From assembly GCA_903896535.1 (NCBI GenBank), contig CAITYE010000230.1, forward strand, positions 1 to 43,482: a stretch of 43,482 nucleotides of DNA, in the 5' to 3' direction. The stretch is from an uncultured Paracraurococcus sp. (GTDB lineage: Bacteria > Pseudomonadota > Alphaproteobacteria > Acetobacterales > Acetobacteraceae). Position 1 is the first letter of the stretch; the number at the start of each line of letters is the position of its first letter. Shown piece after piece: positions 32,344 through 39,098 of the stretch. Made by a program: the position numbers and the translations under genes. The notes under the pieces are model-generated. The model searched no databases and was not told the origin of the DNA. It saw only the letters and a list, made by a program, of their open reading frames with translations.

Positions 32344-33051
32344 TCAGCGCGGGCTTGGTACGGTGGTGATCTGCCCGCCGGGGCCGACCAGCGTCGTCAT
32401 GCCGTTGGCATCACGGATCGCGGTGCCGGCGGCGCCACCAGGTGCCACATACGTCCCGACGCGGTCAGTCCCCGGGCCAGAGACGGCGACGCCGCCAGGC
32501 GTGTTCAGCATCCGGCCATCGGCACGGCGCGGTGGCGGGTCGTCGAGCCCAGGGGGCGGCAGCGCCGACATCGGCCGGCGTTCATCGCGCCGCCAATCGT
32601 TCGGGTCGGGCGACGGCGGGGGCGTGGAACTGCCGCGCGAACGCTGCCGTGGCTCCGGCGCGATGCTCATGCCGGTGACGCCAGCCGGGCTGAGCGACGG
32701 ACCGCCCGGGGGACGGTAATTCGGAATGCCGCGCAACGCTGCATCGGGATTGGCAAGCGTCGCGCGTGGCGGCTCCGGCTGCGGCCAGACATCGCCGCTT
32801 TCGCTGCGCAATGGGTCGACCGCCGGGTTGGGCCCGAAGACGCGGGAAATGGTCAGGCTATCCGGGTCGCGCGGCACATCGGATCGCGGGGCACCCCAAG
32901 GTGCGCCCAGCGCCTTTCCGGTCATGCCGATTTTGTCATAGGTGGCGGCAGAGGTCGAACGCACCCATTGCCGTGGCTGCTCGACCTGGGAGCAGCCAGT
33001 GAGCAGCACGACCAGAGACACCCCGAACGTTGCCCGCACCGCACCCCGCAT
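32344..33051 (-). CDS. Proline-rich putative lipoprotein
   Basis: MRGAVRATFGVSLVVLLTGCSQVEQPRQWVRSTSAATYDKIG...; lipobox VLLTGC; Pro/Gly-rich C-terminal region. Confidence 0.75.
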   Translation of the reverse strand: MRGAVRATFGVSLVVLLTGCSQVEQPRQWVRSTSAATYDKIGMTGKALGAPWGAPRSDVPRDPDSLTISRVFGPNPAVDPLRSESGDVWPQPEPPRATLANPDAALRGIPNYRPPGGPSLSPAGVTGMSIAPEPRQRSRGSSTPPPSPDPNDWRRDERRPMSALPPPGLDDPPPRRADGRMLNTPGGVAVSGPGTDRVGTYVAPGGAAGTAIRDANGMTTLVGPGGQITTVPSPR

Positions 33052-33112
33052 CGACCACTCCTGCCCTGCACACCTTCGGGCGAAAACACCATGCGCCGGG
33101 ACGGCCCCCGCC

Positions 33113-33739
33113 TCAAGGCCGGGCGAGCGGCGCAGCATCCGGACGGGCGGCTGGCTCGGGCGCGGTCGGCTCAGCGCCCGCATAAGCAAGACCGGCCAAA
33201 AGGTAGTCCCAGCCAGTCAGCAAGGTCAGCGCCGCCGCCACCCAGAGCATCGCCTCCCCGATCAGGGAGACCGGGAGGAACCCCAGGCCGATCACAGACG
33301 CCCCGGTATCCCCGGCAATCAGTGTCCCGAGCGCCCCCATCTGAAAACCGGTCTTCCACTTGGCGAGCCGCGTCACAGGCAGGCCAACGCGCAGGCCCGC
33401 CAGGTATTCGCGCAGGCCCGAGACCAGGATTTCCCGCAGCAGGATCACGATGGCCGGGTAGAGCGACCAGCCTGGCAGCCGGTCATAGCCGGCCAACAGC
33501 ATCAGCGCCGCACCGACCAGGAGCTTGTCCGCGATGGGGTCCAGCATCCGCCCGAAGCCCGAGACGAGTTGGCGCTCACGGGCGATCTTGCCATCGAAAT
33601 AATCGGTGATGCCGGCAAGGCCGAAGACCAGGCAGGCGGCAAAATCGGCCCAGGGCTGGCGCAAGGCGACGAACAGCATCAGCACCGGCACGGCGGCGAT
33701 GCGGGAGAGCGTCAGCAAATTCGGCAAATCGGTCGGCAT
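33113..33739 (-). CDS. pgsA: CDP-diacylglycerol--glycerol-3-phosphate 3-phosphatidyltransferase
   Basis: MPTDLPNLLTLSRIAAVPVLMLFVALRQ...FGLAGITDYFDGKIARERQLVSGFGRMLDPIADKLLVG (CDP-alcohol phosphotransferase signature). Confidence 0.95.
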   Translation of the reverse strand: MPTDLPNLLTLSRIAAVPVLMLFVALRQPWADFAACLVFGLAGITDYFDGKIARERQLVSGFGRMLDPIADKLLVGAALMLLAGYDRLPGWSLYPAIVILLREILVSGLREYLAGLRVGLPVTRLAKWKTGFQMGALGTLIAGDTGASVIGLGFLPVSLIGEAMLWVAAALTLLTGWDYLLAGLAYAGAEPTAPEPAARPDAAPLARP

Positions 33740-33802: not shown

Positions 33803-35689
33803 TCACCCCCCTGGGTGGAAATGCTCATAAATCTTCCGGGCGACCGTCGGGCCGACGCCCGCGGCATTGGCCAGATCCTCAAAGGCGGCGTTGCGGACGC
33901 CGCGGGCGCTGCCGAAATGGTTCAACAGCTTGCGTTTCAGAGCCGGCCCAACGCCCGGGATCTCGTCGAGTTCGCTGCGAACCAGCGCCTTGGAGCGGCC
34001 GGCCCGGTGGGTGGTAATGGCGAAGCGATGCGCCTCGTCCCGCAGCCTTTGCAAATAGTACAGCACCGGGTCGCGCGGGGGGAGCTGGAGGGGCGGCGCG
34101 TCGGGGCGGTGGAACCACTCGCGCCCGGCATCCCGATCCGGTCCCTTCGCCACGGCGACCAACGGCAGGTCATCGCAGCCAAGCTCCGCCAGCACCGTCC
34201 GCGCGGCATTGAGTTGGCCTAGGCCGCCATCGATCAGCACAAGGTCGGGCCAGGTGCCACCAGAGCGTGCCGGGTCCTCCTTCAGGGCACGGCCGAAACG
34301 ACGCTCGAAGACCTCGCGCATCATGGCGAAATCGTCACCCGGGGCGGGCGCTGAACGGATAGCGAACTTTCGATAGGCTTGCTTCAGGAAACCCGCTGGC
34401 CCGGCCGCGATCATCACACCATACGCATTGGCACCCTGGATATGGCTGTTGTCGTAGACCTCGATCCGCTCAGGAGAGGCCGGCAGGTCGAAGACGCGGG
34501 CGACCCCGCCCAGCAGCGCCTCCTGCGCCGTGCCCTCGGCCAGGCGGCGTTCCAACGCTTCGCGCGCGTTGCTTTCAGCATGCTCAACCACGGCGCGTTT
34601 GTCGCCGCGCTGCGGACGGTGCAACTCCACCTTCCGCCCGGCCTTGATCGACAGAGCCTCGGCCAAAAGTGGCGTCCCGCTCGGTTGATGGCTCAACAGG
34701 ATCAGCGGCGGGGGCGGCAGGTCGTCGTAAAGCTGGCCAAGAAAGGCGCCCAGGACCGCCTCAGGTCCCTGCTCGCCCCGGGTGAGGAAATAGGGGCGGT
34801 TGCCATTGTTCCGACCGCCCCGGAAAAAGAAGACCTGCACGCAGCTCTGCCCGGCCGCCTGGTGCAGCGCCACCACATCGGCATCCCCAACGCCCGCCAG
34901 ATGCGTACGGTCCTGCCCCTGAATATGGGTCAGGCCCCGGATACGATCGCGCAAAGCCGCAGCCCGCTCGAACTCCAGCCGCTCGGCTGCCGCCTCCATC
35001 TCGCCGGCCAGGCGCTGCTGGATCGACGGCGTCTCCCCGGACAGGAAGCGCTTGGCGTCAGCGACCAGGGCGGCGTAGTCCTCGCTGCCAATCCGCTCAA
35101 CGCAGGGCGCGGCGCAGCGCTTGATTTGATAAAGGAGGCAGGGCCGGTCGCGGCTCTCGAACACCGTGTCGCGACACGAGCGCAGCAGGAAGACTCGTTG
35201 CAGCGCGGTGAGCGTCTGGTTGACCGCCCAGGCGGAGGCGAAGGGCCCCCAATAGCTGGCACCCTTGCGCCGTTCGCCACGATGCTTGGCGATCTGCGGA
35301 AAGGGATGGTCTTCAGTGATCACTAGCCAGGGATAGGATTTGTCGTCCCTGAGGACGATGTTGAAGCGCGGTCGCAGGCGTTTGATAAGATTGGCTTCAA
35401 GCAGCAGCGCCTCCGCTTCGGAGGAGGTGGTGATAATCTCCAGATGGCGGGTCTCGTAGACCATCCGCCGTAGCCGCTCAGGAAGGCGCGAGAGGTGCGT
35501 ATAGGTGGCGACACGACGCTTCAAGGCGCGTGCCTTACCGACATAGAGGGCATCCCCCCGGGCATCGAGCATCCGATAGACACCGGGGCTGAACGGCAGA
35601 GTGGCGAGCGCTGTTTCAATGACCCGCAGCCCCACCATGATCGGTGAACCGGAATCTGTCACTGGCTTGTCATCAGAGGCTTGACTCAT
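33803..35689 (-). CDS. uvrC: Excinuclease ABC subunit C
   Basis: [36 protein letters not shown] (GIY-YIG), [40 protein letters not shown]-terminal helix-hairpin-helix [18 protein letters not shown]. Confidence 0.97.
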
Positions 35690-36066
35690 TGTCGAAGATT
35701 TGGGCCGCAAGGTCTTCCGCGGCAAGCACCGGACCATCCACCAGTCCTGTGGAAAACCTTGTGGATCAGAATGGGCCGAGGCGGTGAAACTGGCCGCCAG
35801 CAAGGAACTTGACGCAATTGCTCAAATTTCAGGCTTGTCTATAACGATCTGATTTTCCTAGTTATTTTTTTGGTAAGACGCGGTTTCCAAGCTGTCCTTC
35901 GCCGATGCGGACAGGATTGGCCTGGATCAAGGGGTTGGCGGGTCGCGGTGGACAAATACCGGAGTGCCCGCGTGAAGGGCGAGTTTCGCCTGACGCTCTG
36001 GAAAACTCAGGGCCGCTGAATATCAACAATAGGTTACAGTGAGGGGACACATGATGGGAGGTGTAA

Positions 36067-36462
36067 TTACCGGACCCGCTCGACCTCCACCCCAACCGCG
36101 GCGGCGTCGGGAAACGCGTCCGGCTTCTCGACCCTCACCCGGCAGCGTTGAACCCGAGGCTCGGCCAGCGCCGCCAGCGCGATCCGCTCCGCCAGCGTCT
36201 CCGCGAGATAGGTATGACCCTCGGCCGCCACCGCCCGCGCCGCCAGCACAACGCGCTCATAATCCGTCACCCGGGCCAACCGGTCAGGTCCGACGCCGCC
36301 CGGCGCTGCGTCGTCCTCCACCAGCATGTCGATCGCGATCACCACCCGCTGTGGCGCCAGTTTTTCATGCGCTTTCACACCAAGCAGCGCGCGCAGCCGC
36401 AAGCCGCGGATGAAAACGCGGCGGAGCCGGCCGGTCGCGTCAGGAGCAAAGCCATCGTTCAT
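36067..36462 (-). CDS. folB: Dihydroneopterin aldolase family protein (copy 1)
   Basis: RRVFIRGLRLRALLGVKAHEKLAPQRVVIAIDM...VTDYERVVLAARAVAAEGHTYLAETLAERIA...RVRVEKPDAF; conserved E, Y and K positions of FolB. Confidence 0.85.
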   Translation of the reverse strand: MNDGFAPDATGRLRRVFIRGLRLRALLGVKAHEKLAPQRVVIAIDMLVEDDAAPGGVGPDRLARVTDYERVVLAARAVAAEGHTYLAETLAERIALAALAEPRVQRCRVRVEKPDAFPDAAAVGVEVERVR

Positions 36463-36589
36463 ACCAATGTGTCCAGCGCCGAGAACGCGACTGAGGATGG
36501 CGAGGGTCGGGCACTGCAGCGGAGGCTCAGCGATCCGGTCACAGCGGCCATAGGCCGGTTCGGCGGAGAAGAGCCGCAGGGCTGGGGAC

Positions 36590-36609
36590 CGCAGGTTGCG
36601 TAACCTGCG
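36590..36609. repeat. Perfect inverted repeat CGCAGGTT-GCGT-AACCTGCG
   Basis: 8-bp arms, 4-nt loop, in the gap between the FolM-like SDR and folB copy 1; no T-tract beside it. Confidence 0.7.
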
Positions 36610-36725
36610 ACCGGCGCACTGAATCGGTATACGTCATCGTGACGGCCAACCTATCGTGCTGAAGGGCCTGGGTCGGTCCAGGGGTAACCGCCAACGGCCA
36701 TGTCTGGGGCTGCAGCACATTTCAC

Positions 36726-37487
36726 CTATTCTACGTCGAATGCGACATCCCGCGGCCGGCGCCGCAACTGCTCCCCACCATCGATCGTGATGGTCGTGCC
36801 GGTCATCGCCGGCACCGAAAGGATAAAGCGTACCGCCGCGACGATGTCGGGCACTTCACTGCTGCGGCCAAGGGGGGTGACCCCGGTCGATTTCTGGAAG
36901 CTATCCGGGGTCTGCTTGCCGCTGATCAGCGTCACGCCGGGCGAAATGCCGCAGACCCGCACCTGTGGCGCCAGCGCCATCGCTAGCAGCTTGGTTGCCC
37001 CATGCAGCCCGACCTTGGAAATGGTGTAGGTGAAGAAGTCCGGATTGAGGTTCTCTGTCTTCTGATCGAGAAGGTTGATGATCACTCCCTCCGCACCCTC
37101 AGGCAGTTGGCGGTGGAAGTCCTGCGCGAGAAACACCGGGGCCCGCAGGTTAGCGGCGACATGTTCGTCGAACAGCGCAACCGTCGCCGTCGCAGCCGTA
37201 TCGTAGCGAAAAGTGGAGGCGTTGTTGACCAACAGCCCGATCGGGCCGAACGGCACCGTGGCTCGTGCGATCAGCGTCGCGACCTCGGCCGCATCTGCCA
37301 GATCGGCGCGGACGATCGCGGCGCGCCCGCCCTCGGCCCGTATGCCGGCCGCAACCGCTTCCGCCTCCTCGACCGAGTTGCGGTAATGGATGACCACCTG
37401 CCACCCGTCGGCGGCAAGCGCACGGGTGATCGCCGCGCCGATCCGCTTCGCGCCGCCAGTGACCAGCGCCGTTCTTGGCTCTGCCAT
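36726..37487 (-). CDS. SDR family oxidoreductase, pteridine reductase/FolM-like
   Basis: LVTGGAKRIGAAI (TGX3RXG), LLVNNASTF, NLLDQKTENLNPDFFTYTISK with Asp141-X12-Tyr154-X3-Lys158, as in PTR1 and FolM. Confidence 0.85.
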   Translation of the reverse strand: MAEPRTALVTGGAKRIGAAITRALAADGWQVVIHYRNSVEEAEAVAAGIRAEGGRAAIVRADLADAAEVATLIARATVPFGPIGLLVNNASTFRYDTAATATVALFDEHVAANLRAPVFLAQDFHRQLPEGAEGVIINLLDQKTENLNPDFFTYTISKVGLHGATKLLAMALAPQVRVCGISPGVTLISGKQTPDSFQKSTGVTPLGRSSEVPDIVAAVRFILSVPAMTGTTITIDGGEQLRRRPRDVAFDVE

Positions 37488-37488
37488 C

Positions 37489-37860
37489 TCAGTTCCTCCG
37501 CCGGCGATACACCTCAATGCCGGCCCCGGCAGCCTCGTTGAATATATCGGGCTTGATCAGTTCTACACGGCATGCATCGACGTTCGAATCCTCGAAGCAT
37601 ACGGTGATCAGATCCTCGGCAAGCTCCTCGAGTAATTCGGTATGCGGGCGGTCACGCCACGTCTTCAGGAAATTCCGGACGCTGTCATAGTTGATCGGCA
37701 CGCGCCTATTGTGGGCTTCCTGGTAGGCAAAAAGGTCAATAGTGACGAGCAGACGGGTGGGGCGCTCGGGGTGGCGCTCCCAGGGATGCAGACCGAGCTT
37801 AACGTCGATCTCAACCTGCTGCAGCGTGATGCGGATGTAGTCCTTCGACCAGTCCCACAT
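37489..37860 (-). CDS. Dihydroneopterin aldolase/epimerase family protein (copy 2)
   Basis: MWDWSKDYIRITLQQVEIDVKLGLHPWERHPERPTRLLVTIDL...INYDSVRNFLKTW...LLEELAEDLI...VELIKPDIFNEAAGAGIEVYR; FolB/FolX fold with E, Y, K retained. Confidence 0.82.
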   Translation of the reverse strand: MWDWSKDYIRITLQQVEIDVKLGLHPWERHPERPTRLLVTIDLFAYQEAHNRRVPINYDSVRNFLKTWRDRPHTELLEELAEDLITVCFEDSNVDACRVELIKPDIFNEAAGAGIEVYRRRRN

Positions 37861-37979
37861 GATGTCGGCATCCCGTTCCGCTCTGGCGCCGGGGTATAGC
37901 CCAGATCGGGACCGCCGAAAGCCGCCCCACACCGGGCGCTCGCTTGCCGGCACCAGGCGGTGCGTGCTTCGGTGGCCGC

Positions 37980-39098
37980 ATGTCGAGCACAGAAACACCG
38001 ACCCCGCCGCCATTACCGAGCGCAACCGATCAGTACGCGACCGTGCGGCTGGTCGAACGCGCGGTCATCCTGCTGCTGCTTGCCCTGCTGCTGGTGGGTG
38101 TGCTCCGGGTGTTGGAGCCCTTCGCGATCGCCATCCTGTTCGGTGGCTTCCTGGCGATCGGTACCTGGCCCCTGCGGAACTGGCTGGTGGGGCGCGGCCT
38201 ACCCCGCCCCGTCGCCGCCGGGGTGCTGTTGATCGCCCTAGTGCTGCTGGTGGCACTACCGGTGGTTATCCTTGCCCCTGGCCTCAGCGGCCAGATCCGC
38301 TTTGGCTCAAGCTTGGCGCGGGACTGGCTGGCGCACGCGCCGGTGGTACCCCCGGACTGGTTGCGCAATCTGCCCTTGGCCGGCGAACGGGCCGCGACAC
38401 TCTGGCCGCAGTTGCGAGAGGCGCAGATCAATTTCCGCGAACTCCTCTCGCCCTATGCCGGGACAATCTCCGAGACGCTGATCGCCCTGGCGGGTGGCGT
38501 GGTGAACAGCTTGGTGCAGATCCTGCTCGCGATGGTGGTCGCCACCGCCTTCTGGGCACATGGCGAAAAAATAGCCGCGAACCTCAAGGATGTCGCCCTA
38601 CGGCTAGGAGGGCCAACTGCGGCAACGGCGCTGGATGCCGCTGGCGGTGCGGTGCGGGGCGTCGCCTGGGGGGTGGTCGGCACGGCGGTATTGCAAGGCG
38701 TTCTGCTCGGCATCGGGCTCTGGATCGCCGGGGTGCCCGGGGCGACGTCGCTCGGCTTCCTCGGCTTCGTCTTCTCGCTCTCGCAGGTGCTCGGGCCGCT
38801 GGTGATCCTGACCTGGCTGGGAGCCGCCTGGTGGCTTTACACCAGCGGCACGGTAGGCTGGGCGATCTTCATGGTGCTCTGGGGCATCGTGCTGGTCTCG
38901 GGCAGCGACAGCGTGGTCCGCCCGCTGCTGATCAGCCGCAGCGTGGCGATGCCGATGACCTTGATCATTCTTGGTGTCTTCGGCGGGCTGATCGCCTTCG
39001 GCTTTCTTGGCATGTTCGTCGGGCCGGCGCTGCTGGCGGTGGGGCATGCGCTGATGAAATCCTGGCGGCACCTGCACGCACCCACACCGGCCGTCTGA
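37980..39098 (+). CDS. AI-2E family transporter
   Basis: LVERAVILLLLALLLVGVLRVLEPFAIAILFGGFLAIGTWPL...SLGFLGFVFSLSQVLGPLVILTWLGAAWWLYTSG...FLGMFVGPALLAVGHALMKSW. Confidence 0.88.
   Translation: MSSTETPTPPPLPSATDQYATVRLVERAVILLLLALLLVGVLRVLEPFAIAILFGGFLAIGTWPLRNWLVGRGLPRPVAAGVLLIALVLLVALPVVILAPGLSGQIRFGSSLARDWLAHAPVVPPDWLRNLPLAGERAATLWPQLREAQINFRELLSPYAGTISETLIALAGGVVNSLVQILLAMVVATAFWAHGEKIAANLKDVALRLGGPTAATALDAAGGAVRGVAWGVVGTAVLQGVLLGIGLWIAGVPGATSLGFLGFVFSLSQVLGPLVILTWLGAAWWLYTSGTVGWAIFMVLWGIVLVSGSDSVVRPLLISRSVAMPMTLIILGVFGGLIAFGFLGMFVGPALLAVGHALMKSWRHLHAPTPAV

Follow-up and report, generated by a model that had tools for sequence, protein, structure and literature searches.

A pteridine reductase flanked by two FolB paralogs as a candidate source of dihydrofolate reductase activity in a ThyX-dependent member of the Acetobacteraceae

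The PruA pteridine reductases are the closest described counterparts of the short-chain dehydrogenase/reductase (SDR) analyzed here. Agrobacterium PruA reduces dihydropterins but does not reduce dihydrofolate effectively, the Pseudomonas aeruginosa homolog prefers dihydrofolate, characterized PruA enzymes reduce dihydromonapterin, and the Brucella enzyme is treated as a PruA homolog (review PMC13259868). Dihydrofolate reduction is of particular relevance in bacteria that rely on ThyX, since those without FolA must have some dihydrofolate reductase (DHFR) activity, the gene for which was reported as unidentified in 2007 (PMC1971073). Known dihydropteroate reductases elsewhere include flavin-dependent enzymes (PMC1971073), and a folM-type gene has been proposed as a substitute for folA in Midichloria (PMC8709577).

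Here we analyze a stretch of 43,482 nucleotides (hereafter, the window) from an uncultured Paracraurococcus sp., in which an SDR gene is flanked by genes for two FolB-family proteins. On balance, and with moderate confidence, we favor the reading that this SDR supplies the DHFR activity missing from its host, and that the cluster would thus serve the folate supply of a ThyX-dependent bacterium with no detectable DHFR.

Organization of the locus and family of the reductase

The coordinates and strand assigned to the three genes in the initial annotation were confirmed. Transcription on the minus strand proceeds from FolB2 through the SDR and a 263-nt spacer to FolB1, uvrC and pgsA, with moaE further downstream, and the locus comprises the following features:

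37489..37860, minus strand: FolB2, a divergent FolB-fold protein of 123 aa, first gene of the cluster
37488..37488, minus strand: FolB2/SDR spacer, a single base (TGA-G-ATG) read from the sequence
36726..37487, minus strand: SDR, assigned to the PruA family of pteridine reductases, 253 aa, with TGGAKRIG and D141-Y154-K158
36463..36725: SDR/FolB1 spacer, 263 nt, with no recognizable coding remnant
36067..36462, minus strand: FolB1, a dihydroneopterin aldolase homolog of 131 aa, resident (vertically inherited) as judged from its relatives
33803..35695, minus strand: uvrC, conserved downstream neighbor with Pfam UvrC domains, marker of the putative ancestral SDR-folB1-uvrC locus
33113..33739, minus strand: pgsA-like CDP-alcohol phosphatidyltransferase (PF01066), next gene downstream of uvrC

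The near-fusion of the upstream pair is borne out by the sequence: the FolB2 stop codon (TGA, at 37489) is followed by one base (37488) and by the ATG of the SDR at 37487. In relatives this gap spans 5-78 nt, as measured between aligned regions. The gap between the SDR and FolB1, on the other hand, amounts to 263 nt here, compared with a median near 55 nt among relatives, indicating that FolB1 is coupled less tightly than FolB2 and the SDR are to each other. Inspection of reading frames in this spacer and tblastn searches with resident SDR and PTPS proteins revealed no remnant of either gene and nothing convincing past the end of the SDR, and a simple pattern scan of the locus returned no promoter or terminator. 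The FolB1-uvrC-pgsA order is shared with three other loci. An open reading frame between pgsA and moaE (32344-33189, minus strand) carries a lipoprotein-like LTGCS motif, and another, divergent from FolB2 (37944-39098, plus strand), encodes a predicted membrane protein with no counterpart next to the SDR of any relative examined.

Family profile, sequence motif, phylogeny and predicted fold concur in identifying the SDR as a pteridine reductase of the PTR1/FolM/PruA class, and its substrates are predicted from this assignment. Its best NCBIfam match is the NF006597/PRK09134 equivalog (326 bits; cut-off 281), against which Brucella FolM scores 435 bits. The Brucella FolM structures 5bt9 and 5tgd are both the solved structures nearest to the SDR by sequence and the closest to its AlphaFold2 model (pLDDT 93.2; TM ~0.9, E-values of 1e-28 to 1e-25), with PTR1 and FabG structures ranking next after a gap in E-value; the comparison with PTR1 and FolM structures that had been proposed as a check therefore came out in favor of a pteridine reductase fold. 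The motifs singled out in the initial annotation, TGGAKRIG near the N-terminus and D141-X12-Y154-X3-K158, are present, matching the TGX3RXG and YX3K patterns with Asp at the catalytic Ser position, and an alignment of 37 such SDRs shows no variation at T10, G11, R15, G17, D141, Y154 or K158. The proposal that the protein is of PTR1/FolM type thus holds at the level of the pteridine reductase class, as judged by motif, profile, tree and fold, but not for FolM proper, the SDR being of PruA type. It shares the PTR1-type motif and the chemistry class of E. coli FolM, the dihydromonapterin reductase, but reaches only 107.4 bits against the corresponding model (NF005066; cut-off 249), which rules out orthology. 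With Leishmania and Trypanosoma PTR1 it has in common the motif, the D-Y-K spacing and the fold (TM 0.83-0.89), at an identity of only 31-35%; PTR1 also reduces fully oxidized pterins, whereas Agrobacterium PruA does not.

The likeness to Agrobacterium and Brucella PruA extends to the equivalog score, TGX3RXG, the D-Y-K arrangement and the fold, and members of the PruA clade occupy the same uvrC-side locus in the family of the window. The window SDR nonetheless lies outside the well-supported clade (100/99) that unites resident same-family SDRs with Brucella PruA. It is placed beside that clade, among SDRs linked to FolB2 (98 SH-aLRT in a quick tree, 89/82 in a careful tree), and on this side of the tree DQK..NLNPDF replaces DQRVW.LTPHF. 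A tree constrained to place the SDR with the PruA clade is worse by 19.8 log units, but the AU test (p 0.17) does not reject this placement. A further difference from PruA is that the window host has no detectable DHFR.

Two FolB paralogs and the assembly of the cluster

Both proteins flanking the SDR had been described as FolB-fold, and both match the Pfam FolB domain (PF02152) above its cut-off, with 79.8 bits for FolB1 and 48.8 bits for FolB2. They are different paralogs with intact catalytic residues: the fold and the catalytic Glu, Tyr, Glu and Lys of FolB aldolases and FolX 2'-epimerases are found in both copies, and neither copy departs from E. coli FolB or E. coli FolX at the active-site G, E, Y, E and K. 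Against the FolB equivalog TIGR00525 (cut-off 72.15), FolB1 falls just short with 67.4 bits and FolB2 scores 36.0 bits, and on the FolX model NF008418 (cut-off 152) they attain 32.2 and 16.8 bits, respectively. FolB2 thus differs from both FolB and FolX in lying below the cut-offs of both models and in bearing its own signature, GLHPWERHPERPTR ... KPDIFNEAAGAGIEVYR, and its residues G23, E28, Y58, H73, E78 and K103 are invariant across 49 FolB2 sequences. The nearest folds to its AlphaFold2 model (pLDDT 89.8) are dihydroneopterin aldolases and FolX.

In a 70-protein tree, the deeper order of which is limited by few columns and long branches, the E. coli FolX branch among them, all 36 FolB2 sequences fall into a single clade (100/100) that includes neither FolB1 nor the E. 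coli FolB and FolX proteins. The FolB2 cluster hence defines a third FolB clade. Together with the NF008418 score, this phylogeny, which had been suggested as a check, rules out FolB2 as a FolX ortholog. It also speaks against the suggestion that one copy acts as a FolX-like epimerase, as does the finding that about 10 of the roughly 20 FolB2 genomes contain no other FolB-family match, some of them perhaps because of assembly gaps. That FolB2 is the lone FolB-family match in about half of its genomes suggests that it is able to act as an aldolase, and it probably retains aldolase activity and possibly 2'-epimerase activity.

The distribution of FolB2 is patchy, with representatives in about 19 of 338 alphaproteobacterial genomes from some 11 families and a few matches in Nevskia and other records. 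Of 80 named FolB2 loci, 61 have an SDR of the window kind (blastp >100 bits) no more than 300 nt away, and several of the remaining loci are cut by contig ends. The recurrence of this linkage and the invariant residues indicate that the locus pattern reflects more than chance. Two further arrangements include a PTPS-family gene. The Caulobacteraceae genera Brevundimonas, Phenylobacterium and Caulobacter share, across 14 loci, the arrangement FolB2-SDR-PTPS-FolB1, the PTPS-family gene between the SDR and FolB1 carrying a C-x3-HGH motif; the one PTPS protein of this type that was checked (locus L154) does not reach the cut-off of the QueD equivalog. The other arrangement, seen at 8 loci in Rhodoblastus and related records, has FolB2 followed by a more distant SDR (32-36% identity), in some cases with no match to TGX3RXG, and by a QueD-like PTPS gene.

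About 20 loci of the same family present the order SDR-FolB1-UvrC, with a gap of about 55 nt between SDR and FolB1, and in Roseococcus, Sabulicella, Rubritepida and one Acetobacteraceae MAG a related state is observed, in which FolB2 stands divergent from SDR-FolB1-uvrC. The nearest relatives of FolB1 are same-family FolB1 proteins (68-70% identity), and by this sequence criterion FolB1 is vertically inherited. FolB2, in turn, has a GC content of 57.8%, versus 65-70% in neighboring genes. The resident gene order, the vertical descent of FolB1, the grouping of the SDR with FolB2-linked SDRs and the low GC content of FolB2 all point to a replacement, whereby a FolB2-SDR cassette, in which FolB2 would have arrived with its own SDR, appears to have entered an ancestral SDR-folB1-uvrC locus and displaced the resident PruA-type SDR. 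Given the AU result (p 0.17), this scenario is favored rather than proven.

Folate and pterin genes in the host and across the Alphaproteobacteria

The initial annotation regarded the cluster as a candidate second pterin module. The genome, however, contains exactly two PF02152 genes, both located in the cluster, and searches of its 561-contig assembly returned no DHFR (PF00186) and no aromatic amino-acid hydroxylase (PF00351, phhA). DHFR was likewise undetected in 35 other genomes of the family, by a search that did recover it from 9 further genomes of the set and from 9 of 14 controls. A second, spare pterin pathway in this genome is therefore ruled out, and a tetrahydromonapterin cofactor serving an aromatic amino-acid hydroxylase would find no known target there. 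Within the family, PF00351 is detected in only 4 of 36 genomes; in those four, the hydroxylase could be served by a tetrahydropterin cofactor. Of the genes that had been proposed for checking, phhA and a separate DHFR were thus not found, whereas HPPK (folK) is present, implying that folate is probably made de novo. As the genome holds only two FolB-family genes and no detectable DHFR, the cluster contains both the folate pathway's own FolB and its best reductase candidate.

ThyX is encoded in all 36 family genomes, including that of the window, and the SDR family is detected in 33 of them (E below 1e-55), at no more than one copy each; the genome under study thus combines ThyX, a folate pathway and the SDR with no detectable DHFR. 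In two FolB-bearing family genomes, G023 (94% complete) and G034 (82% complete), neither DHFR nor the SDR was detected.

The same pattern emerges at the level of the class. In a sample of 338 Alphaproteobacteria, the SDR family was found in 135 of 139 genomes with FolB and no DHFR, and in 78 of 95 genomes with both (Fisher p = 1e-4, in a test that ignores common descent). These counts use E-value ceilings of 1e-50 (SDR) and 1e-6 (FolB), take four marginal DHFR matches as absent and, like the family-wide ones, rest on the best-ranked SDR candidates in each genome (35 or 7 of 87 scored, depending on the search), such that a distant second pteridine reductase could escape. Genomes with DHFR and no SDR are scattered over 12 families, and those lacking both over 4.

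The need for DHFR activity in the folate pathway even in the presence of ThyX, combined with this class-wide pattern, favors a folate role for the SDR. Under this scheme, FolB1 would act as the housekeeping dihydroneopterin aldolase and the SDR as an NADPH-dependent PruA-family reductase supplying dihydrofolate (or dihydropteroate) reductase activity, and presumably essential in that capacity; it may additionally reduce dihydromonapterin or dihydroneopterin and yield a tetrahydropterin product. The case resembles Midichloria, also an alphaproteobacterium with a FolM-type SDR and no folA (PMC8709577), but differs from it in that the replacement was there proposed for one symbiont, whereas here it draws on a pattern seen across the class and on a cassette of linked genes. 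The 135/139 pattern accordingly singles out one testable candidate for the dihydrofolate-reducing enzyme of ThyX-dependent, FolA-less bacteria across a large class.

Competing explanations and additional pterin genes

Weighing against a DHFR role are the already high frequency of the SDR in genomes with DHFR (78/95), the poor performance of A. tumefaciens PruA with dihydrofolate (review PMC13259868) and the two FolB-bearing family genomes with neither DHFR nor the SDR. The missing activity may instead be provided by a RibD_C-fold reductase encoded on contig C300 of the same genome, by a flavin-dependent reductase or by an unscored SDR. A scenario in which one of the first two fills the gap and the SDR plays no part in folate metabolism is rather improbable in our estimation: the RibD_C-fold reading frame lies near a PTPS-family gene and flavin-dependent dihydropteroate reductases have precedent (PMC1971073), but the reading frame adjoins no recognized folate genes. 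Somewhat less doubtful, though still tentative, is the possibility that FolB2 arrived as a redundant aldolase, a passenger of the acquired SDR, with only that SDR and FolB1 being of consequence here. Its intact catalytic residues, a GC content consistent with recent acquisition and its apparent ability to serve some genomes alone all accord with redundancy, yet FolB2 has been retained beside FolB1 in the Caulobacteraceae clusters and is separated from the SDR by between a few and some tens of bases, which points to joint use more than to drift.

The remaining alternatives assign the SDR to pterin rather than folate metabolism. A FolX/FolM-like module, in which FolB2 would produce the monapterin epimer from dihydroneopterin (or from the triphosphate) and the SDR would reduce dihydromonapterin to a tetrahydromonapterin cofactor, is compatible with the dihydromonapterin reductase activity of characterized PruA enzymes (PMC13259868), with the status of FolB2 as a distinct paralog tied to the SDR, and with the Caulobacteraceae keeping FolB2 together with FolB1 next to a PTPS-family gene. 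We nevertheless consider it unlikely: neither profile nor tree identifies FolB2 as FolX, the occurrence of FolB2 as sole FolB-family match in about half of its genomes favors an aldolase, phhA is absent here and rare in the family, and the genome would still be left with no DHFR. By analogy with PruA in Agrobacterium, a tetrahydropterin made by the SDR could also feed a PruR-DcpA-type control of c-di-GMP, PruR-DcpA pairs being widespread in Proteobacteria (PMC13259868) and the SDR belonging to the same NCBIfam family as Brucella PruA. This role appears very unlikely, since the window contains no recognized PruR or DcpA, the SDR falls outside the PruA clade proper and the near-universal presence of the SDR in DHFR-less genomes would go unexplained.

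A broader proposal, compatible with the preferred DHFR function but speculative and improbable as a whole, is that FolB2 and the SDR, often joined by a PTPS-family gene, constitute a distinct, horizontally moving alphaproteobacterial pterin cassette. FolB2 would then perform a chemistry unlike that of FolB1 or FolX, and the SDR would yield a new tetrahydropterin besides acting as DHFR in folA-less hosts.

The genome also encodes two PTPS homologs elsewhere, neither of which matches the Caulobacteraceae type, ruling out a PTPS of that type in this host. One lies on contig C300 (L207:3-2312), where the RibD_C-fold reductase (PF01872), a dehydrogenase-like reading frame, the PTPS-family protein and a likely glycosyltransferase are encoded in a row, possibly constituting a modified-pterin cluster. 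The other, on contig C558 (L208:1492-1971), is a divergent PTPS/QueD homolog scoring 30 bits against TIGR03367 (cut-off 89).
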